A stretch of DNA of 64,000 nt from Torulaspora globosa (Eukaryota > Ascomycota > Saccharomycetes > Saccharomycetales > Saccharomycetaceae): the NCBI RefSeq assembly GCF_014133895.1, contig NC_050727.1:1488001-1552000 (forward strand), given 5' to 3'. Position 1 is the first letter of the stretch. Each line of letters begins with the position of its first letter. The translations under genes were made by a program, and so were the position numbers. The notes beneath the pieces were generated by a model. That model was given only the letters and a program-made list of their open reading frames with translations. It ran no database searches and had not been told where the DNA came from. Shown here one piece after another: positions 26,715 through 32,724 of the stretch.

Positions 26715-27206
26715 ATGGCCGTTAAGACTGGTATGTTTTAAACTAGCGAAATTGGGAGAAAGCATAGATCGAAGCGTTAGTATCGGGAAAGCAGCGAAAT
26801 GAACAATCACATCCAAAGTCGCCCACTCCGAGTTTTCCAAGTTTTACCCGCTGTTGCAATTCTCCAGATAACAATTCCATGAACGGTTTTACTAACTAGA
26901 AACACCGTGTTATTTTCAGGTATCGCTGTTGGTTTGAACAAAGGTAAGAAGGTCAACTCCATGACCCCAGCACCAAAGATCTCCTACAAGAAGGGTGTCT
27001 CCTCCAACAGAACCAAGTTCGTCCGTTCTTTGGTCAGAGAGTTCGCCGGTTTGTCCCCATATGAGAGAAGATTGATCGATTTGATCAGAAACGCCGGTGA
27101 AAAGAGAGCCAGAAAGGTCGCCAAGAAGAGACTTGGTTCCTTCTCCAGAGCCAAGGCTAAGGTCGAAGAAATGACCAACATCATCGCCGCTTCCCGTCGT
27201 CACTAA
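26715..27206 (+). CDS. RPL36: 60S ribosomal protein eL36 (two exons)
   Basis: Exon 1 is 26715-26730 (ATGGCCGTTAAGACTG) and exon 2 is 26920-27206; spliced they encode 100 residues, the standard eL36 length, opening MAVKTGIAVGLNKGKKV and ending IIAASRRH. The splice sites are GTATGT at 26731, branch point TACTAAC at 26890-26896 and TTTTCAG at 26919. The early position of the intron, after codon 5, matches S. cerevisiae RPL36A/B. Codon use is strongly biased to the preferred yeast set, as for a highly expressed gene. One copy stands for the S. cerevisiae pair YMR194W/YPL249C-A. Confidence 0.97.
26731..26919 (+). other. RPL36 intron
   Basis: 189-nt spliceosomal intron with GTATGT donor, TACTAAC branch point 23 bases from the end, and CAG acceptor. 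It interrupts a glycine codon (phase 1). Confidence 0.95.
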
Positions 27207-27340: not shown

Positions 27341-27922
27341 ATGCTAGCTCACCGCGCTGCGATCAGACATTTCACTACGAGCCTGCCCCGATGCAACACC
27401 GCAAGACCCCCGCCATCCTACTTTACCCATGATTCCGGCCACCACGCTGCACAGACGCCGTCTTCCGGGCCCGGCAACCGGTCAAGATCGCTAACAGACA
27501 TCGCAATGGTCATTGCCGTCGGCACACTGTGCTTCCTGGCCATTGACAACTACCGAGCACGCTGCGAGCTGCAGGCCCAGGTCGAACAGGACCGCATCAA
27601 GCTCGCAGAGACACAGGAGTTTCTGACCAGACAGACCAACGCTGCGCGGAAGAAAAGAGAGCTACAGATACTCAACGAGAGAAAGACCACCAAGATGCGG
27701 GAGATGAAGCTCGCCTTGCACGTCGCGATGCTGCGAGCACAACTACAAGACCACGGCATCGAGCCGCGATCCATCGACGACTGCGTGCACGAGTACGCCC
27801 GCTCCGTCAAGATGGACAACAGCATTAGCAACGTCAGCGGAACTGCCCTATGGATCAACGACGACAATTCGTTGAAAGGCCTTATACCTAGCCCGAAAGA
27901 GTACGAGGAGCGCGGCCGCTGA
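27341..27922 (+). CDS. Putative mitochondrial membrane protein with coiled coil, unidentified
   Basis: I do not recognise this 193-residue protein. It begins MLAHRAAIRHFTTSLPRCNTA, a typical mitochondrial presequence (Arg/Ser-rich, no acidic residues). One hydrophobic segment follows at about 54-68 (DIAMVIAVGTLCFLAID), then a charged helix of about 70 residues with coiled-coil character (ELQAQVEQDRIKLAETQEF and on). This layout is that of a single-pass inner-membrane protein with a coiled-coil domain. It lies downstream of RPL36 where S. cerevisiae has no counterpart. Its stop codon is directly abutted, in the same frame, by the LrgB-like relic. The codon use is C/G-rich compared with its neighbours. 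Confidence 0.6.
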   Translation: MLAHRAAIRHFTTSLPRCNTARPPPSYFTHDSGHHAAQTPSSGPGNRSRSLTDIAMVIAVGTLCFLAIDNYRARCELQAQVEQDRIKLAETQEFLTRQTNAARKKRELQILNERKTTKMREMKLALHVAMLRAQLQDHGIEPRSIDDCVHEYARSVKMDNSISNVSGTALWINDDNSLKGLIPSPKEYEERGR

Positions 27923-28322
27923 GGCGTCGCCTTGGCTTTGGGAACTCCCATGATATCCAACTTAGGCGGCAACCAGACAATAATGGCTGTGACCAACGAC
28001 GAGTGGCGTCGTCGGAGCCCTCACGGGAGGTCGCATGCTCGATTTAATAAGAGTACCAGAAGAGGATTACGTTACCCGAGGCCTAGCTCTCGGCTGCAAC
28101 TGCGGTGCCATAACCACCGCTTATCTTCTCGGCGTCGACAGAAGAGCTGCGGCAATAAACTCACTGTCGTTTGTCTTCTACGGTGCTCTTATGGTCATCT
28201 TGAGCGCAATCGGTCCCAAAGCAATTTGTACATCACCTGGTTGGTCTAAACTAAATAAGTCTTGCAAGAAGCTGTTGCTACAGCTGGAAGCGCTGCCTAA
28301 CGACGCCAGGGTCTGGCCTTGA
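27923..28322 (+). pseudogene. Relic of the C-terminal end of an LrgB-like membrane protein
   Basis: Reading from 27923 gives VALALGTPMISNLGG; after a frame change near 28000 the next frame gives GVVGALTGGRMLDLIRV, then RGLALGCNCGAITTAYL and AAAINSLSFVFYGALMV, ending at the stop at 28322. Order and pattern (the TP..LGG block, the RGLALG...A.TA block, then SLSFV) follow the C-terminal half of LrgB/PLGG1-type membrane proteins known from bacteria, plants and fungi. The N-terminal part is missing, there is at least one frameshift, and no start codon exists, so it is a relic. S. cerevisiae has no LrgB gene at this locus. Confidence 0.6.
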
Positions 28323-28686: not shown

Positions 28687-28818
28687 CTACCTCTTATCCA
28701 ATTGTCTCATCTTGTCCTCCAGGACCTGTGGCAGCGGACAGCAGCGCGAACGCGCTGCTGTACCCTGCTGCTCGTAGAACCGGCTACAGCACCTGTACAG
28801 CTGCTCCACCGCCGCAGG
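28687..28818 (-). pseudogene. CMC4: CMC4, displaced 3' fragment
   Basis: Codons reading (P)AAVEQLYRCCSRFYEQQ, then RCCPLPQVLEDKM and the stop TAG at 28687-28689 match the C-terminal half of Cmc4, a mitochondrial intermembrane-space twin-cysteine protein (73 residues in S. cerevisiae, YMR194C-B). The N-terminal half lies 3.1 kb away at 31899-31979 on the same strand. Here the fragment is fused in frame behind an unrelated coding stretch (28819-28995), so the 102-codon open frame is a chimera. No splice acceptor with a polypyrimidine tract lies at the boundary. Location between RPL36 and ICY matches S. cerevisiae. Confidence 0.75.
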
Positions 28819-28995
28819 TTCGCTATCCTCGTCATTCTCGTTAATCACATATCTTCTCAGTAACATCTGCAGAAACAAAAACTGCAGATCCACCTTCTCT
28901 TCATGTTCAATTACAACCTTGCATAGATGCTGAGCCGCAACCGATCGCAGCTCGTACAGAGGGGCACTGTATAGCTCCTGGTGGTTCTTGGACAT
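28819..28995 (-). pseudogene. 5' fragment of an unidentified gene, fused to CMC4 3' part
   Basis: 59 codons from an ATG at 28995, opening MSKNHQELYSAPLYELRSV and running through VDLQFLFLQMLLRRYV to an acidic end (NENDEDSE). Composition and hydrophobic pattern look like genuine helical protein, but I do not recognise the family. It runs without a stop into the CMC4 3' fragment. The ATG is preceded by a splice-acceptor-like TTTTTCAG. A complementary orphan fragment lies at the other edge of the insert (31786-31898); the two may be halves of one gene. Confidence 0.45.
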
Positions 28996-29139
28996 CTGAA
29001 AAATTTAAAGTTGGCCAAACTCAAGGCTAACCTGGCTAAGTGAATGAAAATTCATGCTCAAGACACCTTTGCTTAAACGTCAATCATTCAGTAAAATATT
29101 TCAACAAAAGTAAACTTATTTAGTCATAATAAAACTCAC

Positions 29140-29280
29140 TTACAAGGTGTTGGTAGTTCTAAAGTCTTCCAAGGCAACGGCGATTCTGTTGAACATGGTC
29201 TTTTCACCCTCTCTGACCCAGACTCTTGGGTCGAAGTACTTCTTGTTTGGACTGTCTTCTCCCGGGGGATTTCCTCCCAT
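29140..29280 (-). pseudogene. FBA1: FBA1 (fructose-bisphosphate aldolase) 3' fragment
   Basis: The last ~46 codons of the class II aldolase gene. They read GGNPPGEDSPNKKYFDPRVW, then VREGEKTM and the end TFRTTNTL-like block DFRTTNTL followed by TAA at 29140-29142. Codons are the strongly preferred yeast set, unlike the flanks, as expected of a piece of FBA1. The 5' 85% of the gene is absent. Upstream it is joined directly, at a shared ATG, to an inverted piece of the neighbouring endonuclease gene. WHO homing elements are known to home into FBA1 and to leave displaced FBA1 3' ends next to the WHO gene. Confidence 0.88.
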
Positions 29281-29369
29281 GAAACACTCAGGTCGATACC
29301 GAACAGATTCTCTTGTGAAAGCAAGCAATGACGATTTATCAGGTATAATTTAGAGCTTTGAAGATGATC
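29278..29369. repeat. Inverted, internally deleted copy of WHO coding sequence
   Basis: Bases 29326-29369 are the reverse complement of 29812-29855 (40 of 44 match) and 29278-29321 the reverse complement of 29952-29995 (42 of 44 match). The 96 bases between these blocks in the endonuclease gene are reduced to 4 bases here. It therefore derives from an older WHO copy in opposite orientation, now attached to the FBA1 remnant. Confidence 0.88.
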
Positions 29370-29398
29370 GGGAAGATCAATAATATGGCATTTCAATT

Positions 29399-31243
29399 TC
29401 ATCCCTGCAGCGGACTACTCCTACATCGCTTACACCGGCGAGTAGCAACTTCCCTTTTCCTGAAAACCCTGTTGCAATGATCGTTACTACAACAATGCAT
29501 GTGAGTGCGCGAATAAGCAACCCAACAGGCCCAGCATAACCTGTCTAGAACATCCCCCAACCAGGGAACCTTGTACCACCGTGATGCTGTTTTTGTATGG
29601 CATGATAGGCAACTCCTTTCGAAATCGGTTCTTGATTCCGAAATCAATTCTGCACTTGCACATACAATCTGATCATCCGTGACAAAAGTTCGGTTAGAGG
29701 TACCTGACAGTACCAGTCCTATGACAGTATCTTTACAACCTTCGGTAATTTCAAATCTGAACTTGCCAAAATTGAATGTGCCATCTTGTTGTTCTTCCGG
29801 ATCATCTTCAAGATCATCTTCAAAGCTTTCCCTTATACCTGATAAATCGTCATTGTCCTCAGGATCATTTTCATTTTCTTCCGATTGGTAATCGGAATCA
29901 AATTCTTCGAAATCTCTGTCCCTGCGGTACTGGATTTTCGGATTTCGCTTCCTTTCACAAGAGCATCTGTTCAGTATCGACCTGAGTGTTTCATGATTTG
30001 TCCCACCATATAACTGGAACTCCCACTTATCACTCTCGTTTAATCCACTGCGCTCATCAAAGTGAGCGCCACGGAAACTGGTGGAGACAGTCAAACCAAG
30101 AGAACGAGCTATGAAGTATATGCCATCTCTAATAGGCGGATAGACAGTCTTAATTTGCACACGAATACATCCGTCTTGGATACGGCAATGCCCGTCCGAA
30201 TCAATCAATCCTGCGAGAAAGGCTTCACGCACCACTATTTGCTCTGTTCGCATGAATAGTGGAACGCTCTTCCGATAATTTCTTTTGCCATTCTCGTAGA
30301 ATTCTAATCGGAATTCTAAACCTTCCAGAACCTTCACAAGCGGGTTGTTTACGTTCCAAAGACGTTGCGCGCCATTATAGGTGTGAAGGTATCCACTTGC
30401 TTCAAGGCCGTTCCCACGCTCGAGGTTCCCATCCTCGGTTCTGAGAGTCATACCCCAGACTTTTGCATTCTCCTCAAGTCTGTTGTTGACGTCTTCATCT
30501 ACAATGTTCAAAGCGAAAAGTGCTCCTCTTCTGGCACCGTCACCTATCCAGAACCCTAACAACCATGCCATGGCTTCAAGCTGCTGTGCAGTAATTTCTC
30601 TTTCGAAACATTGTTGCAACCATGGCCCCAATACAGGTATCTCTATCGAGATAGGTTGTAAGAGCATCCTGGTAGCAGCCCGACGTTCCTTGTTAACGTA
30701 TTCCACCAAGTCGCCAGCCTCACATTGCCAGCGGATCCATCTTCCCTCGCTCTGCAAGACCATTGGCTTTACGGAGTCAATGATCTCCGACTTCTTGGTT
30801 GTCGGAGGGAATCGTCTCGATGTTTCCTTGATGATCTTGATCATTCGACCATCCGTCGTTTGATGATCAGCCAGCTGAGACACGTAAACCCGCCTGAAAC
30901 CTTCACTCCTATTATCCCTGGTTATCATGATCCTCTGCTTTGTCTTCAAGACCAGTTGTTGTCTCTTGGAGCATGTGATTTCCATTATGCCATAAGGTTC
31001 CCGCATCGAGGGATCATACAAGTGCGCGCGGTGGTTGGTCTTTTGTTGAACTGTGACCAAATCATGGTCACCTTTTAACACAGCCTCGACTTTTGCCGCA
31101 CCTCCATTAGAGGTTAGAACTTCATCGCCAACTTTGATGTTCTCAATAGGCACGGTCTTCCAGTTGGCTAGGAAAACGTTTGTACCTGGTACCAAACCAC
31201 CAATGAATTTTGGATCACCGTTCATTGTTCTGCATTGCTTCAT
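29399..31243 (-). CDS. WHO-type homing endonuclease (HO / VMA1-intein relative)
   Basis: A 614-residue intact gene. Residues 17-60 resemble the N-terminal Hint block of the VMA1 intein (VPGTNVFLANW...IENIKVGDEVL), and QQKTNHRAH near 66-74 is also shared with HO and the intein. The two LAGLIDADG helices are LLGFWIGDG (228-236) and LAGLIDSDG (343-351); both keep the catalytic aspartates. The N-terminal splice cysteine and the C-terminal His-Asn are not conserved, so no protein splicing is expected. The last ~70 residues hold four CxxC-type pairs (CLSC, CWAC, CSNDHC, CKRC), the zinc domain typical of HO and WHO proteins. Residues around 445-490 form an acidic insert. The adjacent FBA1 remnant favours a WHO gene over HO. 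It could still be active; the target here is not known. Confidence 0.88.
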   Translation of the reverse strand: MKQCRTMNGDPKFIGGLVPGTNVFLANWKTVPIENIKVGDEVLTSNGGAAKVEAVLKGDHDLVTVQQKTNHRAHLYDPSMREPYGIMEITCSKRQQLVLKTKQRIMITRDNRSEGFRRVYVSQLADHQTTDGRMIKIIKETSRRFPPTTKKSEIIDSVKPMVLQSEGRWIRWQCEAGDLVEYVNKERRAATRMLLQPISIEIPVLGPWLQQCFEREITAQQLEAMAWLLGFWIGDGARRGALFALNIVDEDVNNRLEENAKVWGMTLRTEDGNLERGNGLEASGYLHTYNGAQRLWNVNNPLVKVLEGLEFRLEFYENGKRNYRKSVPLFMRTEQIVVREAFLAGLIDSDGHCRIQDGCIRVQIKTVYPPIRDGIYFIARSLGLTVSTSFRGAHFDERSGLNESDKWEFQLYGGTNHETLRSILNRCSCERKRNPKIQYRRDRDFEEFDSDYQSEENENDPEDNDDLSGIRESFEDDLEDDPEEQQDGTFNFGKFRFEITEGCKDTVIGLVLSGTSNRTFVTDDQIVCASAELISESRTDFERSCLSCHTKTASRWYKVPWLGDVLDRLCWACWVAYSRTHMHCCSNDHCNRVFRKREVATRRCKRCRSSPLQG

Positions 31244-31280
31244 TTAACCATGACTGGTCGAATGAGACGAAATCAGTCGC

Positions 31281-31290
31281 TCTTTTATAC
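31281..31290 (-). promoter_or_regulatory. TATA box of the WHO-type gene
   Basis: Minus-strand GTATAAAAGA lies about 40 bases before the ATG at 31243. A 3-codon upstream frame (ATG GTT AAA TGA) overlaps the start codon. Confidence 0.55.
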
Positions 31291-31311
31291 ACCACAGGGA
31301 TGGCGCAATGT

Positions 31312-31419
31312 AGTGGTACGCTGTTTCAAAATCGGTGCAGTGCCTGAGCGTCAAAATGGTTTCAAATGATCAAATAATGCCACAAGATCGTGAGGGGAAG
31401 ACTGTCAGGCCATTTTGCC
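31312..31419. repeat. 108-bp direct repeat, copy 1 (next to WHO promoter)
   Basis: Matches 31693-31800 without gaps at 99 of 108 positions, same orientation. Copy 1 ends about 20 bases upstream of the WHO TATA box. The 273 bases between the copies hold open frames on both strands without recognisable similarity. Confidence 0.9.
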
Positions 31420-31692
31420 CCGCCATTATTTCTGTTATTCTAAGTTATCGATAATGATGAAACATCCGACTATCTCTCACATTGATGGAAGAACCGGGGG
31501 AGCCAGTCAAGCCTCGATCGTTTCGCAATATCTGATGCGACAGCTTGAAACAGCACACAGCATCTCGGTAGCGAACTCTGTCGATGTTCTTGGGGTGCCT
31601 TTGAAGTTTCGCCTTCAACATCTGGATCCGGGCAATATGAAACGATGCCAAGACAAAGCAAACACGGACTTCGCTCTCGAACGTGCTCAACT

Positions 31693-31800
31693 GGTGGTAC
31701 GTTGTTTCAAAATTGGTGTAGAGCTTGAGCGTCAAAATGGTTTCAAATGATCAAACAATGCCACAAGATCGTGAGGGGCAGATTGTCAGGCCATTTTGCC
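31693..31800. repeat. 108-bp direct repeat, copy 2 (at insert edge)
   Basis: Second copy, 381 bases from the first. On the minus strand it starts with GGCAAAATGGCC exactly where the orphan coding fragment 31801-31898 ends, so it may mark an element boundary. Confidence 0.9.
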
Positions 31801-31898
31801 TAAATGATGAAGCAACAGATCCTGCGGTCGCAGCCCGTCGCCCGACCGCACCGGCGCAAACAGCAGCTGCTGCGGATACGACTCAACGTTGAAGTCCG
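31786..31898 (-). pseudogene. Orphan 3' coding fragment at the insert edge
   Basis: In the +1 frame relative to the CMC4 fragment, 33 codons read SDFNVESYPQQLLFAPV then GDGLRPQDLLLHHLG before running into the direct repeat and a TGA at 31786-31788. There is no ATG. The composition looks like coding sequence, but the fragment is short and the family is unknown. It may be the partner of 28819-28995; joining an acidic end (DEDSE) to this start (SDFNVES) would read naturally. Confidence 0.35.
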
Positions 31899-31979
31899 AC
31901 ACTTTGACTCATCATAGTCATTCTTCAACAGACAATTCTGGATGGCACACGCCTCCGCCTGGCAACCCTCCGAAGACAT
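31899..31979 (-). pseudogene. CMC4: CMC4, displaced 5' fragment
   Basis: The first 27 codons of CMC4, MSSEGCQAEACAIQNCLL then KNDYDESKC, from an ATG at 31979. They correspond closely to the S. cerevisiae N-terminus with its cysteine pattern. After codon 27 similarity stops abruptly; no GTATGT, GTAAGT or related donor follows, so splicing across the 3.1-kb gap to the 3' fragment is not supported. CMC4 is normally about 75 codons and lies directly between RPL36 and ICY1, as the two fragments still do. Confidence 0.78.
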
Positions 31980-32340: not shown

Positions 32341-32724
32341 ATGTCGCTTCTGCTAGAAGAAGAGGATCTTTTCCCTCTGTCGTTCGCACAACACTCGCTC
32401 GCCACGCCCGCCTCGCCGCTACACAACGATGAGCTCGACGCACTGATAAACATGCCACCGCCAGCGCTATCGAACAGCCCGAATCCCGGCTCGGAGCCGG
32501 ACTACGACTGGCACTCGTACCAAGATGAGATCGGCCTGCACGTGATCGCCGCAACCACAGACGATGCTATATTCACGGTGGACACGGAACCGCTGGAGAC
32601 GCCCTACAGGGCAGAGCTTGTCGTGCTCCCTCGGGAGCACGACCGGAAACTGCCGGACGAGACGGCGGACGAGTTTGCCGACGCGGCCCAGCACAACTAC
32701 AGATTGTGGCTTGCGTCGTTCTGA
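32341..32724 (+). CDS. ICY1: Icy1/Icy2 homologue
   Basis: 127 residues from the ATG at 32341, identical in length to S. cerevisiae Icy1 (YMR195W); ICY2 (YPL250C, 136 residues) is its duplicate. The protein is acidic and Pro/Ser/Leu-rich without a known domain; LLEEEDLFPLSF near the start and NYRLWLASF at the end are the most family-like parts. Function is poorly known: ICY1 affects growth of cells without mitochondrial DNA and invasive growth. The longer frame starts at TTG and is rejected. It is followed by the YMR196W homologue, as in S. cerevisiae. Confidence 0.8.
   Translation: MSLLLEEEDLFPLSFAQHSLATPASPLHNDELDALINMPPPALSNSPNPGSEPDYDWHSYQDEIGLHVIAATTDDAIFTVDTEPLETPYRAELVVLPREHDRKLPDETADEFADAAQHNYRLWLASF

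Follow-up and report, generated by a model that had tools for sequence, protein, structure and literature searches.

The FBA1-homing WHO elements of Torulaspora and Lachancea encode an HO-like protein with intein and zinc-finger parts, followed by a 3' fragment of FBA1; they sit beside FBA1, the fragment serves as homology, and the host gene stays whole. The VDE (PI-SceI) intein and HO share with the WHO10 protein a Hint region and a LAGLIDADG endonuclease. According to the main text of Coughlan et al. (2020, PMC7282813), WHO proteins carry a C-terminal zinc finger with three to five Cys-X-X-Cys motifs, and such C-terminal CxxC motifs are absent from VDE. In the same article, WHO10 insertions of T. 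globosa are described that are specific to single strains: CBS764 has them at CMC4, RKM5 and MIN6, where no part of the host is duplicated, and CBS2947 has them at two loci; the legend of its Fig. 6 names CMC4 as one of three CBS764 genes disrupted by WHO10. FBA1 fragments were found downstream of each WHO10 insertion, other gene fragments are also present, the sites lack flanking homology, and the integration route is stated as not clear. Here we analysed a window of 64,000 nucleotides of T. globosa (NCBI RefSeq assembly GCF_014133895.1, contig NC_050727.1, positions 1,488,001 to 1,552,000) in which a WHO10 element splits CMC4. Our reading, to which we give a probability of about 0.7, is that the element was inserted into CMC4 and destroyed it through a cut followed by patching of the end-joining type. 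Positions are those of the window unless a contig (C2 and so on) is given, and features lie on the minus strand unless the plus strand is named.

The CMC4 insertion itself is already known (PMC7282813), and the present case shares with the published T. globosa insertions the host gene, the element family, the FBA1 fragment downstream, the other fragments and the lack of host duplication. The tracing of the fragments, a joint-by-joint view and the search for a second CMC4 are added here; the main text of that article contains neither the word YVC1 nor the word microhomology, and its figures or supplements may name the fragments. The original prediction that a WHO element had landed away from FBA1 and broken CMC4 agrees with this record. 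In contrast to the FBA1-homing elements, the element at CMC4 has an unrelated host, which is broken.

CMC4 lies in two parts on the same strand, separated by about 3.1 kb of insert. Codons 1-27 were correctly placed by the original prediction at 31899-31979 (Pfam CMC4, E 5.8e-7, and the junction view); base 31898 probably belongs to CMC4 too, and the Pfam match of this 5' piece extends beyond codon 27. The 3' part, predicted as the last 43 codons at 28687-28818, had to be shortened to 42 codons plus the stop at 28687-28815 (Pfam profile positions 25-62, E 8.9e-11), since in the junction view CMC4 restarts at 28815 (or 28813) and 28818-28816 (Pro) is the end of a YVC1 fragment. Only about one profile position separates the two halves by our own count from the match positions, so little host sequence is missing from CMC4. 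CMC4 is cut, and no duplicated host part was found there like the 3' end by which FBA1-type elements preserve their host.

The element carries an intact gene between the halves, as had been predicted. The open reading frame (ORF) at 29399-31243 encodes 614 amino acids with an intein-like region and a LAGLIDADG endonuclease (Pfam Hom_end_hint, 2.3e-32; Hom_end, 1.1e-24), and its best solved relative is the VMA1-derived PI-SceI (E 1.8e-50, residues 13-438), the match covering both LAGLIDADG motifs. Three CxxC motifs at residues 545, 570 and 604 of the C-terminal part place it, by motif count, within the three to five of the WHO zinc finger. Different from the VDE intein, the protein is free-standing from ATG to stop, without exteins, and a Gly is aligned to the first residue of the intein, so that the splicing Cys is not there and the protein is of the non-splicing kind. 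Directly downstream lies the predicted FBA1 remnant (29140-29274), 135 bp which by register comparison are nucleotides 949-1083 of native FBA1, stop codon included. Native FBA1 is located at C7:163189-164271, and WHO10 at CMC4 is unlinked to it.

In the sense of WHO10, the order is CMC4, thioredoxin-domain piece, partial copy of the WHO10 upstream region, 147 bp, WHO10 unit, YVC1 piece and CMC4. The WHO10 unit (28978-31539) is common wholly or partly to other copies. The thioredoxin-domain fragment (31813-31897) is an internal piece of 85 bp. Its source, in a gene which we take to be MPD2-like, is C2:708422-708506 (88% identity); this stretch lies downstream of the WHO10 block of the presumed MIN6 locus, at a distance of about 0.4 kb. 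The partial upstream copy (31694-31800) is 93% identical to 31313-31419 within the unit and 98% to C2:80209-80315, and the only other match found for the 147-bp segment (31540-31686) is a WHO10 relic at C2:79947-80092 (96%). The YVC1 fragment (28814-28980) is an internal piece of 167 bp, 97% identical to C2:465681-465847, or codons about 112-167 of a 680-amino-acid gene. Beyond CMC4, on the plus strand at 27926-28322, lies a 397-bp 3'-end fragment of an LrgB-family gene with 92% identity to C2:647594-647994, where the full gene stands just downstream of a WHO10 relic. The YVC1, thioredoxin-domain and LrgB fragments and the partial upstream copy are additions to the original prediction. A masked comparison of the 64-kb window with 14 fetched loci placed all cross-matches of the window within 27.9-31.9 kb, and a control stretch of 4,001 bp from the window matched only itself genome-wide.

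CMC4 was predicted to be lost unless a second copy existed, and none was found in the organism's own assembly (9.28 Mb, 8 contigs), either by a DNA search with the 3' part or by a PF08991 family search. The three matches of the latter were the two CMC4 halves and, below the cut-off, a 119-amino-acid ORF at C4:553765, which is presumably COX23-like. It is very improbable that splicing removes the 3.1-kb insert so that CMC4 is still made. Both halves are open on one strand, and donor-like hexamers (GTATGT at 29665, GTAAGT at 29143, GTATGA at 31019 and 30453) and bare CTAAC motifs (31117 and 29697) exist deep inside the insert; however, none of the six donor forms scanned between the halves lies near codon 27, as the original prediction had stated, the nearest being the GTATGA at 31019, none of the four branch-point heptamers scanned occurs in the interval, and a complete gene occupies it. 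Because no second CMC4, no donor near codon 27 and no branch-point heptamer were found, loss of CMC4 function is a sound reading as far as the assembly tells. We found no point in support of the view that the split is an assembly artefact, and we regard this as scarcely credible: closely similar composite elements stand at other loci, and PMC7282813 reports Illumina and PacBio data for these strains with the same insertion.

The junctions show how the insertion may have been made. Three resolvable joints at CMC4 and RKM5 share 1, 2 and 3 bp, the ends of the pieces are sharp in the junction view, and no guiding homology or target duplication was seen. By our own reading of the junctions, judged by the reading frame, 2-4 bp of host sequence were lost at CMC4 and 1 or 4 bp at RKM5; a common loss of 4 bp would fit a blunted overhang of four nucleotides. 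We propose that CMC4 was cut by the Who10 endonuclease or opened by another break, that the break would have been closed by repair of the end-joining type which copied in the WHO10 unit, and that pieces of other loci, of which some had probably been hit by WHO10 themselves, were joined in alongside as bystanders. A comparable patchwork of short unlinked genomic pieces reportedly arises at induced breaks in yeast lacking Dna2. Those insertions are laboratory events in mutants, whereas the one at CMC4 is natural and has a nuclease gene among its pieces.

The insertion at RKM5, a locus which we assigned with an RKM5 query, has the same kind of mosaic build, with four pieces of traceable source. 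Its order is RKM5, the TFS1 3' end (97% to its source), an 84-bp piece (95%, source C2:168894-168976), WHO10, an 83-bp macro-domain gene piece (92%), a stretch of Ty3-like sequence whose identity to other copies is 81% at most, a 61-bp piece of an MFS gene (97%) and RKM5 again. The WHO10 copy at C2:89-91 kb carries the same macro-domain piece, which is therefore inherited with the element.

Outside the element, seven pieces with traceable source were counted at CMC4, its 3' flank and RKM5. This number includes the macro-domain piece, although another WHO10 copy carries it, and excludes the Ty3-like piece as a dispersed repeat, the FBA1 remnant and a 136-bp tract as parts of the element, the segment at 31540-31686 and a 37-bp copy at the presumed MIN6 locus. 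Three of the seven sources (thioredoxin-type, LrgB and TFS1) lie 0.4-1.8 kb downstream of another WHO10-like block, each in a gene of the same orientation as the WHO10 there, and the other four have no WHO match within 40 kb, among the WHO10 protein matches listed. With 1,760 bp on either side, the blocks cover 0.75% of the genome, and the binomial probability of three in seven is 1.4e-5. This value is post hoc, for the data themselves fixed the distance of 1,760 bp, and the LrgB piece is counted although it lies outside the insert; without that piece, two of six sources are near such blocks (8e-4). The 13 blocks are that of the window and those of 12 fetched loci, their lengths entered by hand from the masked comparison; one of them, C2:286862, has FBA1-side sequence only and no WHO ORF match, and a lone piece at C4:169642 and the distant hits at C3:1001840, C4:102128, C4:36325 and C5:368376 were left out. 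Contig C2, with 14% of the genome, holds five of the seven fragment sources and 8 of the 13 blocks.

That three of seven sources stand beside other WHO10-like blocks would also suit a plain carry-along, in which WHO10 moved together with its flanks and the fragments are relics of its former hosts. This possibility is raised in PMC7282813, and the macro-domain piece shared by the RKM5 insertion and the C2:89-91 kb copy as well as the differing divergence of the pieces, which suits serial pick-up, speak for it. But the source genes lie downstream of WHO10, whereas the TFS1 and thioredoxin-type fragments are found upstream of it and the LrgB fragment beyond CMC4, on the opposite strand; the four remaining sources lack a listed WHO match nearby. 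The junction between WHO10 and gene at the source was kept in none of the three WHO10-adjacent cases, and because of this loss patching from broken loci is favoured over carry-along, which we consider possible but doubtful. The cut with end-joining-type patching is, on this evidence from sequence, the preferred route.

Several observations weigh against such a route. The overlaps of 1-3 bp at the joints could also be chance. The 85-bp thioredoxin-domain fragment at 88% and the 167-bp YVC1 fragment at 97% differ in divergence (Fisher 0.009), which would fit a stepwise build-up or uneven constraint better than a single event. By eye, no common recognition core could be made out at the CMC4 and RKM5 breakpoints, CGC bordering the CMC4 break on one strand and being absent at RKM5. 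Finally, a search with two flanking stretches of the presumed MIN6 locus (271 and 361 bp) found no unlinked source outside WHO10 copies; the only copied piece there is 37 bp of the thioredoxin-domain gene next to it. The unequal divergence, the second partial upstream piece at 31694-31800 and the LrgB fragment (27926-28322, 92%) beyond CMC4 would also agree with repeated hits, in which CMC4 or its 3' flank was first broken and patched and WHO10 arrived later. We regard this course as unlikely, since both parts of CMC4 remain readable and almost complete in length, and the comparison in PMC7282813 takes the CMC4 case as one strain-specific insertion.

From the patching route a wider model can be drawn for the spread of WHO10 without homology, transposase or fixed ends. 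The nuclease would cut several chromosomal sites at once, the broken ends would patch one another, WHO10 would be copied in as one of several bystander pieces, and loci hit by WHO10 would become fragment donors. We put this model forward only tentatively.

The WHO10 protein gave at least 45 matches in its own genome. Full-length ORFs free of stops were three, with 76-100% identity to the query: the copy at CMC4, the copy at RKM5 and one at C2:709374. The neighbours of the last appear to be ERD2-like and SOD1/URA7-like, and we presume it to be the MIN6 locus. The three ORFs fit the published set of CMC4, RKM5 and MIN6, by which the strain sequenced is almost certainly CBS764. The CMC4 copy shares 78.9% and 76.2% protein identity with the other two, within the range of about 72-80% given for intact dispersed copies (PMC7282813). 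Pairwise ratios of nonsynonymous to synonymous substitution rates (dN/dS) among them were 0.57-0.66, which suggests some purifying selection on WHO10 and would be consistent with recent activity. The glucokinase gene at C2:78284-79792, with Glucokinase-1 as its best solved match, has a WHO10 relic (C2:79947-80658) directly downstream, and the only intact WHO12 gene adjoins GLK1 in Naumovozyma castellii (PMC7282813); two WHO families therefore lie beside the same kind of glycolytic gene. Distant WHO matches were seen at C3:1001840-1003069 (30%, in an ORF of 1084 amino acids) and C4:102128-103387 (27%, 607 amino acids), probably VMA1 with its VDE intein and HO, respectively.

Further features of the element and its surroundings were mapped. 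A plus-strand segment that follows the WHO10 stop and precedes the FBA1 remnant (29278-29377) repeats two parts of the WHO10 ORF, 29947-29995 and 29804-29855, in inverted orientation. Five other loci have this segment too, and a sixth has part of it; a transcript containing it could fold back. The 136-bp tract at 28993-29128 recurs 3' of native FBA1, where it forms part of a 90% match on C7. An isolated copy (C4:169642-169777, 97%) has the end of a DUF5315 gene on one side and, on the other, a gene which we take to be PGI1. We dropped the idea that this tract is a fragment of the C4 gene end, as it also stands behind native FBA1. We likewise rejected a simple element with fixed ends: position 31539 resembled a fixed left end at eight other copies, but those copies share more upstream sequence among themselves, so 31539 is merely where the CMC4 copy departs. 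The meiotic URS1 core (GGCGGC, either strand) does not occur in the 737 bases upstream of the WHO10 ORF. An ORF of 102 amino acids (28687-28995) joins the element tail, the YVC1 fragment and the CMC4 tail in frame; it is a chance fusion without the first half of CMC4. Within the CMC4 3' part, 28731-28768 is a near-palindrome with an 84% match to its own reverse strand. As to the predicted place between RPL36 and ICY, the RPL36 main exon was confirmed at 26961-27206 (plus strand), while the ORF at 32341-32724 had no Pfam hit and takes the name ICY from the original prediction. The LrgB fragment lies between an ORF at 27341-27922 and CMC4.

The locus provides a yeast in which CMC4 is disrupted by nature. 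For the integration of WHO10 into sites without flanking homology, left open in PMC7282813, a patchwork with several sources near WHO10 copies offers a concrete and testable answer: error-prone patching of breaks may be a way in which homing endonucleases become general mobile elements.

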